The position numbers were made by a program, and so were the translations under genes. Source: Methanobacteriota archaeon (GTDB taxonomy: Archaea; Thermoplasmatota; Poseidoniia; Poseidoniales; Thalassarchaeaceae). From it: 64,000 nt of DNA. Below, one piece after another: positions 52,191 through 56,042 of the stretch (position 1 is its first letter; each line of letters opens with the position of its first letter). The stretch spans positions 69,267 to 133,266 of the forward strand of contig PAYZ01000017.1 in NCBI GenBank assembly GCA_002716085.1. The letters are read 5' to 3'. The notes beneath the pieces were generated by a model that was not told the DNA's origin, made no database searches, and saw only the letters and a list, made by a program, of their open reading frames with translations.

Positions 52191-52562
52191 TCATGACTCT
52201 TCTATCGAGTTTTCCTTGAGTAGTTCCATCGATACCACTTGTAGGGTTTCTTCATGGGTGGCCTCAAGGAACACAGGGCATGCTAGTCCGATTTCTGCTG
52301 CGTCCTGCCATGTCTGGGCACACACGCACCACCTATCACCAGCTGAGAGTCCTGGGAAGTTGAATTCGGGGGCTGGAGAAATCAGATCGTTTCCCTGAGA
52401 ACGGGCGAATTCGAGAAATTCGTCCGTAACTTCACAGCAAACAGTGTGAAGTCCTCGGTCTTCCCTATCGGTATTGCAACATCCATCACGATACCATCCA
52501 GTTAGGGGGTCAACTGAGCATGACTGAAGATCCCCTCCGAGAACGTTGAATGATGGCAGCAT
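52191..52562 (-). CDS. DUF2237 family protein
   Basis: A cysteine-rich protein of 123 residues that follows the DUF2237 pattern from end to end: NVLGGDLQSCSVDPLTGWYRDGCCNTDREDRGLHTVCCEVT, then GNDLISPAPEFNFPGLSAGDRWCVCAQTW and FLEATHEETLQVVSMELL. Bacterial and eukaryotic relatives of the same length exist with no proven function. It lies 18 bases upstream of the TM zinc-finger protein on the same strand, so the two are probably expressed together. Likely acquired from bacteria (inference). Confidence 0.9.
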   Translation of the reverse strand: MLPSFNVLGGDLQSCSVDPLTGWYRDGCCNTDREDRGLHTVCCEVTDEFLEFARSQGNDLISPAPEFNFPGLSAGDRWCVCAQTWQDAAEIGLACPVFLEATHEETLQVVSMELLKENSIEES

Positions 52563-52652: not shown

Positions 52653-53522
52653 TCACTCCTCCTCGTCCATCGGACTTGTGCCTATTAGCCCATAGACCAT
52701 TGGAGGGAGAATTAGGAACCACCACGAAACTATGGATCCAGGTCCTGCAACTACTTCTCCGTGGAATCTTATCAGAGATTCGTACCCAGGTTCCCCTTCC
52801 TCTGGTGCGACCTCAATAACCAACTGCCGTTCATCCTCTTCCAGTAGCCCAAGGTCGAAGCCCACCGAGTCGTAAGTAAAAATAAGCCCTTCAAGAGAAG
52901 CACTCTGTCCAGTTCTTGAAGAGAAGTGTGCGAACTGGTCCACCGAAACAGAGTCTGTAGTCTCAGAGTCGAATCCGCCGGTTGAGGACCCTTCTGAATC
53001 TTCCTCCCCCCCTGAGAAGATACCGAAGTCAGCGACGGCTGAAAGCGGGACACCCAGGGCTATCACGACGAGGCAGGAGACCCACAAAAAGCCAGATATT
53101 CCCCTCGTCAGCCTCCTAGGCTTTAGTGAGGCCACTCCCAGAGAAGCTACGAAGGAAGCCATTAGTATCGCGATAGAACTCCGAGCTAGCTCCAAGCATT
53201 CTCCGTGGCAGGGGCCCTCGTCTCTGGATTCTTCGGGATCATCGCTTGAAGAGACATCGTCGCCATTTGGGTTTCCACTTGAATCCGCTGGCTCATTTAC
53301 TTCCTCCCTATGCATCCAGTAGAGAAGGAGTGGCGTTGCGTTCTCAATGCTGATTTCGAATGTCTGAAACTCCTTATCTATGGAGTACTCTGTCTTGATA
53401 GTTGGCTCCCTATCTAGGCCCTCTGTGTACGTCCCTTCCGCGGTAATCTCGAACCAAGAGCTAGACCAGGCAACGAGGACCAGCAACGATGCAAGGACTA
53501 GGGCCTCTGGACGCCCGGCCAT
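52653..53522 (-). CDS. Hypothetical four-helix membrane protein
   Basis: Not recognised. Helices are LVLASLLVLVAWSSSW, SSIAILMASFVASLGVASL, GFLWVSCLVVIALGVPLSA and IVSWWFLILPPMVYGLIG. Two outside loops are acidic and Ser-rich, and the first carries a Cys pair (GPCHGECLE). The last 100 residues look beta-rich (YDSVGFDLGLLEEDERQLVIEV). It starts 10 bases after the stop of the LDL-receptor-A-like secreted protein, so it is part of the same cassette and may anchor or partner that protein. Confidence 0.7.
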   Translation of the reverse strand: MAGRPEALVLASLLVLVAWSSSWFEITAEGTYTEGLDREPTIKTEYSIDKEFQTFEISIENATPLLLYWMHREEVNEPADSSGNPNGDDVSSSDDPEESRDEGPCHGECLELARSSIAILMASFVASLGVASLKPRRLTRGISGFLWVSCLVVIALGVPLSAVADFGIFSGGEEDSEGSSTGGFDSETTDSVSVDQFAHFSSRTGQSASLEGLIFTYDSVGFDLGLLEEDERQLVIEVAPEEGEPGYESLIRFHGEVVAGPGSIVSWWFLILPPMVYGLIGTSPMDEEE

Positions 53523-53531
53523 GGAACTCGC

Positions 53532-56042
53532 CTAGTGCTCTCTTCTGGGGATGGCTATCGCAGCGGCGGTAATAACTGACAACACTGCCACTACACCTGG
53601 CGATGGCAGCCCAGAAGATGAGGCCTCCTCATCCCCGGGAGATTCGGCGGGCTCAGAATCCTCCCAAAATTCGGCGGGCTCAGGACCCTCCCAATCGGAG
53701 ACGCCATCATTGTCATCATCAGAGTCGAAGAAGTCTGTCGTCCCGTCCTTGTCGGTGTCAGTCTGGTCTAGATCGGGGAAGAACTCTAGACCTAATATCT
53801 CGTAGAGCTCTTGAACATCGTGCATCGACTCAGGGGCCATGTCGTCAAGATCTACTTGGGATTCGGTGCCTGACTTTGCATCCTTTGCAGCCTGGCCTGA
53901 TAGGAACTCTGCGTTGATCATCGTTATGGGGTGTGAGTTGACGTTGGTAATTGATGGACCTAGCAGGATCCTGCCCTCGAGGACTATGGCCATTCCGAAG
54001 ACTCGCATCTCAGAAGGGCTCCAGAGCATTGTAGCGCAGAGGTCTTCCAGCTCGTAGAGTGGTTCATCGGGGAAATTGTCTTCCATTAGTGCCTCAAGTC
54101 TTTCGGAGAATGCCTCCATGGTCTTCTCAAGGTTTGATGCCTCCAATTCCTCCGCCATCCTCTCGTACTTGTCTAGTATACCGTCGTCGGAACTTCCCTC
54201 GTCGGATCCGTCATAGCAATCCTCCTCGCCATCATCTACGAAATATGAGGGGATGTAATAGCCGTCATCGCACAAGAAATCTGTTTGGGCTTGGCCGAAC
54301 TCATAGGAAAGATCGACTGCGTCAAAATACTCAGGAGCTGGTAACCCGATGTATAGGTAGTCGCCTGTCCAGTGGTATCTGGACCAACCGCAGCAATCCT
54401 CGTACATGTGGTCCGCATCAGCGGCAAAGGATCCTTGAATAGGAATTGCGCATAGCTCGTAGGCTTCGGACCAGTGAGAGCCTGAATCGCCGCAGTTGGG
54501 GTGGCCGCTCGCGAAATAGTGAGTCTCGTTCCTCGCATTGTAAAAATTAGCGTTTTCGTGGTAGCTTCCGAAAGGCACTTCCGGAGGTGGGAGGTTTGGT
54601 TGAGTGTCTTTTAGGGAGAGGTTCTCAGGCACTTCTTCCCCGCACCATTCAGGGAATCCCGGGTGATCGGAAACCTTGCTCCTGAACGAACTTGAGTTGT
54701 AGTCTTCCAGTGAATCTAGGTTGACATTCACAACACAGTGCCAGACAGAATCACGAATGACAACCTCGTCGGAATTGTCCCCGCAGTCATCATAGCCGTC
54801 ATTGACCCAATATCCGGGGATCTGGTTGCCGTTGGCGCATACGAAGATATCGTCGATATCGTCCCCATCCTCGAATTCGAGCCCTGCTTCTCCCAGCCAT
54901 TCCTCCGCCTGCCCTATTGCCACTTCGCCGAGTTGCTCGACGCCGCTGTCGAATGCCTCTGCCAGAGATAAGGCCAGCATGGCCCCCATCCCCCATGGCA
55001 CTGGTGGGACCAATCCGCACTGGGCCTGGAACTGAGTGCCATCCACCACGATGGTCTCCTTGCCCATGACTGGTGGGCAGTCATGGCCCCAGACGGCACC
55101 AGCGAAAAGAGGCATCTCCTGGAAGAATATTCCCTGGTCGACGATAGTGTCCGATAGGGCCACGTTGAAGACGTCGATGTCGACGTCGAAATCTTCTGCT
55201 GGAATCCCAGAAGCTGACAGTCCCAGAGCGTAGCTGGTTTCGCTAGAGTACGTTCCATCGATGTACCCGGTGTTCTCGAATCCCTTCCCAATGGCCCCTT
55301 GGTCTGGATCGAAATCCGCTCCGGAGGAGTTTGCCGATTCCTCGGTTGGCTCCGAGGACATCAAAAAGTGGTAGTCGACAGGCTCGTTGACCTTCCAGTT
55401 TGAAGTTATATTGGGCACGATGAACGACAGGCTAGCAGAGGATGAGATGTCGGGCGATATTGTCTCGTTTGCAGCTGAAACTCCCAACTCAAAGTCGAAC
55501 CCCATGGATATTGAGAACTCTCCATCCAAATGTAGGTCTGCCCCGTATACCACTAGATCGCTGTCTACGTACTCAACATAGTTGGCGTTAAGAACAACTA
55601 GGTAGTCCTGGTATGCACTGGCCCATACGTCGATCATCTCGTCGTTGTGAGACCAGTTGGACACAACTCCCGTGTCAGCCATGCTTCCGTGCCTAATTGT
55701 GAGCTCAGTCACCCTCTTGCTGACATTGTAGGAGGTGCCTTCCTCATCACTGACTGTGAATGGGCCAGCCTCTTCCCATGTCTCGACGAAGAATTGCGAA
55801 TTCCCGCTCAGTACCTGGTCGTAATCCAAGTCGAAGCCAGCGAATGTAGCGGCTTCCTTCAAGTCCCTGTTTAGCTCGTTTACATCCACACCCGTCATGT
55901 TCAGTGCATCGCCCTCGAAGTGCGACCAGTCGTAAGTTACCCCCCAGATTGCCGAGTCTTCCTGGCCCTCTGCTATGGAGGATGGAGCCATGGAGGTGGC
56001 GAGCAGCAAGCAAATGGACAGCGTTAGGGCCTTCTTGTTCAT
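53532..56042 (-). CDS. Secreted protein with LDL-receptor-A-like and TSP3-like motifs and C-terminal sorting-type tail
   Basis: The track start 56258 overlaps the upstream lipoprotein gene; ATG 56042 begins with a clear signal peptide (KKALTLSICLLLATSMAPSSIA), giving 836 residues. The N-terminal half is beta-rich. Near residues 400-425 comes FVCANGNQIPGYWVND..DCGDNSDE. Near 585-615 comes a second copy with FLCDDGYYIPSYFVDD..DCYDGSDE; both match the Cys and acidic calcium-box end of LDL-receptor class A modules, with fewer cysteines. Near the end is a TSP3-like DTDKDGTTDFFDSDDDNDG, then a Ser/Glu-rich spacer and GLPSPGVVAVLSVITAAAIAIPRREH-type tail: a short motif, a hydrophobic helix and basic residues, as in archaeosortase substrates. 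Confidence 0.8.
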   Translation of the reverse strand: MNKKALTLSICLLLATSMAPSSIAEGQEDSAIWGVTYDWSHFEGDALNMTGVDVNELNRDLKEAATFAGFDLDYDQVLSGNSQFFVETWEEAGPFTVSDEEGTSYNVSKRVTELTIRHGSMADTGVVSNWSHNDEMIDVWASAYQDYLVVLNANYVEYVDSDLVVYGADLHLDGEFSISMGFDFELGVSAANETISPDISSSASLSFIVPNITSNWKVNEPVDYHFLMSSEPTEESANSSGADFDPDQGAIGKGFENTGYIDGTYSSETSYALGLSASGIPAEDFDVDIDVFNVALSDTIVDQGIFFQEMPLFAGAVWGHDCPPVMGKETIVVDGTQFQAQCGLVPPVPWGMGAMLALSLAEAFDSGVEQLGEVAIGQAEEWLGEAGLEFEDGDDIDDIFVCANGNQIPGYWVNDGYDDCGDNSDEVVIRDSVWHCVVNVNLDSLEDYNSSSFRSKVSDHPGFPEWCGEEVPENLSLKDTQPNLPPPEVPFGSYHENANFYNARNETHYFASGHPNCGDSGSHWSEAYELCAIPIQGSFAADADHMYEDCCGWSRYHWTGDYLYIGLPAPEYFDAVDLSYEFGQAQTDFLCDDGYYIPSYFVDDGEEDCYDGSDEGSSDDGILDKYERMAEELEASNLEKTMEAFSERLEALMEDNFPDEPLYELEDLCATMLWSPSEMRVFGMAIVLEGRILLGPSITNVNSHPITMINAEFLSGQAAKDAKSGTESQVDLDDMAPESMHDVQELYEILGLEFFPDLDQTDTDKDGTTDFFDSDDDNDGVSDWEGPEPAEFWEDSEPAESPGDEEASSSGLPSPGVVAVLSVITAAAIAIPRREH

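Follow-up and report, generated by a model that had tools for sequence, protein, structure and literature searches.

Two-cysteine LDL-receptor class A-type modules in a predicted surface protein of Poseidoniales archaea

The LDL-receptor class A (LDLa) module binds calcium and is most familiar from the LDL receptors of animals; its canonical form has six cysteines joined in disulfides I-III, II-V and IV-VI. The repeats of LDLR, VLDLR and LRP2 share with the archaeal modules described here the pattern F-x-C-x-x-G ... IP ... W ... DG-x-x-DC-x-D-x-SDE, its spacing and the modelled fold, whereas the archaeal modules lack C1, C3, C4 and C6, mostly have Asn at C4, and sit in unrelated host proteins. 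The beta subunit of glucosidase II (GIIbeta; PRKCSH, PF12999) shares with them a VND that replaces the C4-D of the LDLR type (VNDDYCDCKDGSDEP); it differs in having one more Cys immediately ahead of C5 and in its location in the ER lumen, with the alpha-glucosidase. For the remainder of the protein, the closest described systems are the PGF-CTERM/archaeosortase A (ArtA) surface proteins, which likewise have a signal peptide, a long outer part, a tail of proline motif, transmembrane (TM) helix and RR, and an ArtA in the genome; our protein differs from them in having SPG-V for PGF and no match to a tail HMM.

The Poseidoniales (Marine Group II) rank among the most common archaeal groups in surface ocean water. 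A genome paper on the order described 'thrombospondin' genes whose secreted products have TSP3-type repeats and were proposed to act in adhesion (PMC6461757), and its main text mentions neither LDLa modules nor archaeosortases. Our search of literature available without subscription found no description of either in Poseidoniales.

Gene A and the homology of its modules

Gene A (P0001) lies in the window, the whole stretch of 64,000 nucleotides that was analysed, in a host genome of 1.58 Mb that is 82% complete. Its features and neighbours are collected in Table 1.

Table 1. Features of gene A and of the adjoining genes (window positions)
Feature	Position	Strand	Description
P0003	56131..57243	-	370 aa; predicted lipoprotein (lipobox VPGC); upstream neighbour of gene A
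Gene A (P0001)	53532..56042	-	836 aa; predicted secreted, C-terminally anchored LDLa-module protein; ORF check: start ATG at 56042, stop at 53532
Signal peptide, predicted	55971..56042	-	Residues 1-24 (MNKKALTLSICLLLATSMAPSSIA), from sequence
N-terminal domain	55008..55952	-	Residues 31-345; predicted helices, then long antiparallel beta strands
LDLa-type module 1	54762..54848	-	Residues 399-427, incl. FVCANGNQIPGYWVNDGYDDCGDNSDE (400-426); Cys402-Cys420 and DNSDE box
Variable linker	54282..54761	-	Residues 428-587; low-confidence model
LDLa-type module 2	54195..54281	-	Residues 588-616, incl. FLCDDGYYIPSYFVDDGEEDCYDGSDE (589-615); Cys591-Cys609 and DGSDE box
C-terminal alpha/beta domain, conserved	53778..54185	-	Residues 620-755; no known family
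TSP3-like acidic Ca-type repeat	53685..53774	-	Residues ~757-786, incl. DTDKDGTTDFFDSDDDNDGVSD (~762-783); motif by inspection
C-terminal anchor	53535..53609	-	Residues 812-836 (LPSPGVVAVLSVITAAAIAIPRREH); LPSPG, hydrophobic helix and RR; PGF-like variant
Gene B (P0002)	52653..53522	-	289 aa; predicted four-TM membrane protein with two beta-rich outer loops
DUF2237 protein	52191..52562	-	176 bits; next gene downstream of B

The hydrophobic N-terminus is retained in gene A homologues. In the AlphaFold (AF2) model, residues 31-220 form blocks mostly at pLDDT 80-93, with lower values beyond 220, and the C-terminal domain lies mostly at pLDDT 72-89. Identity in the N-terminal domain is 24-34% with the other family of the order (Poseidoniaceae), and the C-terminal domain is 44-52% identical in same-family homologues; the linker is common at length to only a minority of homologues. 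The N-terminal domain gave no confident PDB fold match and no significant Foldseek match and, like P0002 and P0003, belongs to no Pfam or NCBIfam family. LDLa modules aside, Foldseek with gene A returned only beta-barrel noise.

The Pfam model Ldl_recept_a (PF00057) matched gene A in two stretches (E = 5.3e-11, 43 bits, cut-off 24.1), module 1 scoring 29.1 bits and module 2 scoring 27.9 bits, and it matched 28 of 30 family members at E <= 0.1. A phmmer search of the PDB returned VLDLR (E = 6.6e-6), with LDLR-type chains as the best PDB relatives, and the family profile matched LDLR, LRP2 and GIIbeta. Segments of the AlphaFold model aligned with LDLR modules 3-4 (2fcw_B) over 33 columns, with 52% identical residues and a deviation of 1.7 Å (probability 1.00); taken together, the structural matches to LDLR modules 3-4 and ApoER2 range from 1.7 to 2.1 Å and from 50 to 52% identity, across 33-34 columns. 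The modules are thus predicted to adopt the LDLa fold.

The two calcium-box motifs recorded in the initial annotation were confirmed: DG-x-x-DC-x-D-x-SDE occurs in both modules and is near-invariant across the family. In the family alignment D415, D419, D422, D425, E426 and the equivalent positions of module 2 are nearly invariant, with D614 and E615 retained in 30 of 30 homologues. The cysteines are retained at C402 (28/30), C420 (27/27), C591 (27/27) and C609 (30/30); nearly every sequence of the family has C2 and C5, and the remaining cysteines vary. The modules probably bind Ca2+ and may each form a C2-C5 disulfide. The disulfide-forming enzyme VKOR was not found in three genomes of this genus (the host and two relatives), so disulfide formation in gene A is assumed; VKOR scored over its cut-off in 15 of the 21 order genomes searched.

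Could the likeness be convergence on a Ca2+-binding acidic loop (DxDGSDE), with no homology? Four of the six LDLa cysteines are gone, the modules span merely ~28 residues, and acidic Ca loops arise often. Against this reading, the HMM scores exceed the Pfam cut-off, the match extends beyond the acidic loop to F-x-C-x-x-G, IP, W/Y, [ND]DG and the C2-C5 spacing, and the modelled fold agrees at 1.7 Å; moreover, bacterial modules with six and apparently four cysteines bridge to the two-cysteine form. We regard convergence as very improbable, and the gene A modules as almost certainly homologous to LDLa.

Distribution and cysteine reduction of the modules

At E <= 1e-4, PF00057 matched 110 of 194 Poseidoniales genomes (109 over the cut-off) and 0 of 14 control genomes. 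A phylum-wide sample gave matches in 84 of 390 genomes and, among the matches listed, all were Poseidoniales save one genome of the same class. The gene A family was matched in 78 of 116 order genomes, in some via LDLa modules only; within gene A's own genus, this homologue search of 116 order genomes recovered the full-length protein in just one further genome. A whole-protein scan of the genome contigs with gene A gave no relatives, and the genome search recovered them. The presence of the gene family throughout the order, and its position in archaeal operons, led us to reject contamination by eukaryotic DNA.

The modules occur in many otherwise unlike proteins, including giants with TSP3 arrays. 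One giant ORF of the same genome (L015:9771-19925, minus strand) is cut off by the end of its contig and is at least 3384 aa long; it combines arrays of TSP3-type repeats with LDLa-like modules, and its PGF-CTERM tail is clear (PF18204, 28.6 bits). Another locus (L014:8812-12702, plus strand) encodes a protein in which a lipobox occurs together with an LDLa module and a repeat of the GCTKPDALNFDASATALDSSC type. In small Poseidoniales ORFs of 205-256 aa (L054, L059, L061, L071, L076 and L102) the module is the extreme C-terminus, and the ORF stops a few residues past the SDE box.

An LDLa-like protein, mostly of 160-280 aa, is also encoded by 96 uncultivated viral contigs (L113-L192). Its segment reads NDG..DC.DGSDE (NWTQYSPNGCVPNG..YLNDGW.DCVDGSDE), and the CDG form occurs in none of the 96 contigs. 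Beside one viral LDLa-like gene lies a neighbour with a match (1e-7) to a virion structural PHROG. A Crocinitomicaceae MAG (L215) contains a segment very similar to the viral one, so the hosts of these contigs may be Bacteroidota. Neither the gene A protein nor the viral LDLa-like protein was found in phage records.

Of the six cysteines of a canonical LDLa, the gene A modules have C2 and C5 alone, and so they are a reduced LDLa variant. The LDLa-like modules of the initial annotation therefore hold, given the HMM and PDB matches, the modelled fold and the phyletic conservation, as a one-disulfide variant that is not of the animal type; the count of two of six cysteines per module and the placing of the gene in a conserved operon go beyond what it had described. 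The two-cysteine reduction runs across Poseidoniales: among 201 distinct modules, none has C3 or C4, 177 have Asn in place of C4, and 188 have C2. All 57 modules sampled from other organisms, which were bacteria, have C4 and C6. A scan that allowed N, C, S or Y in the C4 position, whose counts are samples among the matches listed, gave N in 79/79 for Poseidoniales and C in 45/49 for other organisms (mostly Myxococcota/'Deltaproteobacteria', also Endozoicomonas, Kistimonas, Nocardia and Salinisphaera). Many non-Poseidoniales modules lack C3 and have C4 and C6. We infer that these may be an intermediate in pairwise disulfide loss, the order of loss being conjectural because sequences this short cannot support a tree. 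C1-C3 coupling in bacterial modules was weak (p = 0.09), since a C1 call can be the C6 of the preceding module.

The GIIbeta-type model PF12999 matched 16 of 30 family members at E <= 0.1 (P0001 itself, E = 0.17). The VND of GIIbeta was read from the PDB subject sequence found with a composite two-module query; when the search was repeated with a natural Poseidoniaceae module, GIIbeta was the best PDB match (E = 1.2e-6). As some Poseidoniaceae modules are nearest to GIIbeta, the label 'animal-like' is too narrow.

The adjoining membrane protein and other neighbours

Gene B follows gene A directly, after a gap of 9 nt. The two genes adjoin on the same strand at all 39 loci where both were recoverable, and this adjacency spans both families of the order, at identities as low as ~20-25%; within gene A's own family the pair is patchy. 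Evolutionary distances of A and B are correlated (r = 0.92), in part through shared ancestry. A functional link between A and B is likely, and the two proteins may also be in physical contact.

The AF2 model of gene B (pLDDT 79) has TM helices at residues 5-20, 109-133, 137-166 and 263-280; each of the two outer loops contains beta strands. Its predicted four TM helices and beta-rich outer loops 1 and 2 resemble those of claudin, PMP22, TARP and DUOXA proteins. In a PDB fold search the GluA2-TARP gamma-5 complex (E = 0.010, prob 0.94) was followed by DUOXA1 (E = 0.051, prob 0.51), with no match at E <= 0.001; TARP gamma-5 and DUOXA1 are subunits of the claudin superfamily or of claudin-like type. 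The TM-scores are low, the fold matches fall short of significance, and there is no sequence match: no Pfam claudin-type model matched any of 28 members, and the family has no W-GLW-C-C signature, no conserved cysteines and no GLW. The modelled topology is claudin-like; membership in the claudin family is unsupported and is not claimed here.

Homologues of P0003 are found at a few homologous loci (in genomes G087, G017 and G063). The G063 homologue (L096:624-1958, minus strand) bears an LDLa module itself, which ties this neighbour to the same module set.

Anchoring of gene A and its possible role

The tail of gene A is tripartite, with a short motif, a TM helix and a basic cluster. Its SPG motif, helix and RR end, like the TSP3-like repeat, had been described before and are present by inspection, but the SPG-V tail, without the F of PGF, matched neither PF18204 nor the NCBIfam PGF-CTERM models, and the repeat had no Pfam TSP_3 match at E <= 1 and matched no NCBIfam model. 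The archaeosortase that the initial annotation proposed to look for is encoded in the host genome: ArtA was found at G000:C13:71709-72692 (TIGR04125, 87.2 bits, E = 1.2e-24, cut-off 75), and it exceeds the cut-off in 90 of 97 order genomes. The C-terminus was recovered for 91 Poseidoniales ORFs with LDLa modules, of which 69 end in a proline motif, a hydrophobic helix or TM segment and R/K, and 42 of these 69 belong to a loose PG/PA[FLVIYM] class that includes clear PGF tails; the classes follow simple rules and the counts are approximate. PGF-type tails are thus found on many LDLa proteins of the order, but gene A has its own variant.

A second, divergent archaeosortase-family protein (L348:593-1717, L349:771-1904; TIGR04178 at 32-33 bits, below every subfamily cut-off) was recovered only in Poseidoniaceae among the 97 order genomes surveyed. 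As a guess, it and the LLPFxSP tails might be an undescribed sorting pair. Archaeosortase B as the LLPFxSP enzyme is not supported (15.9 bits against 150).

We hypothesize that the signal peptide would direct the export of protein A and that the tail would keep it at the membrane, either cleaved by ArtA and lipid-anchored or as a plain TM anchor. Outside, it would present a beta-sheet domain at the N-terminus, at least one LDLa module with a single disulfide, and the C-terminal domain. The modules would fold around Ca2+ and act as Ca2+-dependent rigid acidic patches touching a ligand or neighbouring proteins, and B, with its two outer loops as a beta domain, would dock A at the membrane, holding or organising it. 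These folds and topologies are predicted from models. A surface location is very probable, and it is an evenly balanced proposition that gene A is a Ca2+-stabilised, surface-anchored protein of receptor or adhesin type that works with the membrane partner B.

How the tail is used may be read in two ways. Because the SPG-V tail matches no sorting HMM, gene A as an archaeosortase substrate is plausible and unproven; processing by ArtA may or may not occur, with neither outcome favoured. A tentative alternative is that the tail stays uncleaved as a normal TM anchor and has nothing to do with ArtA, which would account for the missing HMM match and for the poor conservation of PGF in the family, where the tail reads SPG-V here, PAPS, PGPS or VPGV in relatives and mostly LLPFxSP in Poseidoniaceae. 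It sits less well with the near-universal ArtA of the order, with the canonical PGF tails on many LDLa proteins, and with the closest relative (in G087, 60% identical), which ends in VPAPGF.

The modules themselves could be purely structural, serving an S-layer-like or envelope protein as spacers or stiffeners clamped by Ca2+, and A-B could be a unit of envelope architecture in which they have no ligand role. The number of modules per homologue ranges from 0 to 7 with constant flanking domains, and the modules recur in many unlike proteins, TSP3-array giants included, as such a role would allow; the strong constraint on the calcium box and the disulfide cysteines, and the clustering of modules at fixed places, notably right after the N-terminal domain, argue weakly against it. 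We consider this structural reading unlikely, and lean slightly towards ligand binding by A; no result points to a binding partner or ligand. A fuller scheme, in which A as receptor and a claudin-like B make up a dedicated Poseidoniales surface recognition system, a GIIbeta-type one-disulfide module was swapped between marine archaea and eukaryotes, and disulfides were lost pairwise from six cysteines to four to two, appears improbable.

The new cell-surface binding system suggested at the outset is consistent with the conserved operon and with surface anchoring and, given the conserved A-B operon, gene A may belong to a previously undescribed surface binding apparatus. A module thought typically animal is widespread in Poseidoniales, in proteins with sorting-type anchors, and is there reduced to one disulfide along the known LDLa cysteine pairing. 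The reduced module shows how little of LDLa suffices, a point relevant to the workings of the fold and to the origin of the module, and the A-B operon is a concrete gene pair that may have a part in how Poseidoniales touch particles, polymers and other cells.
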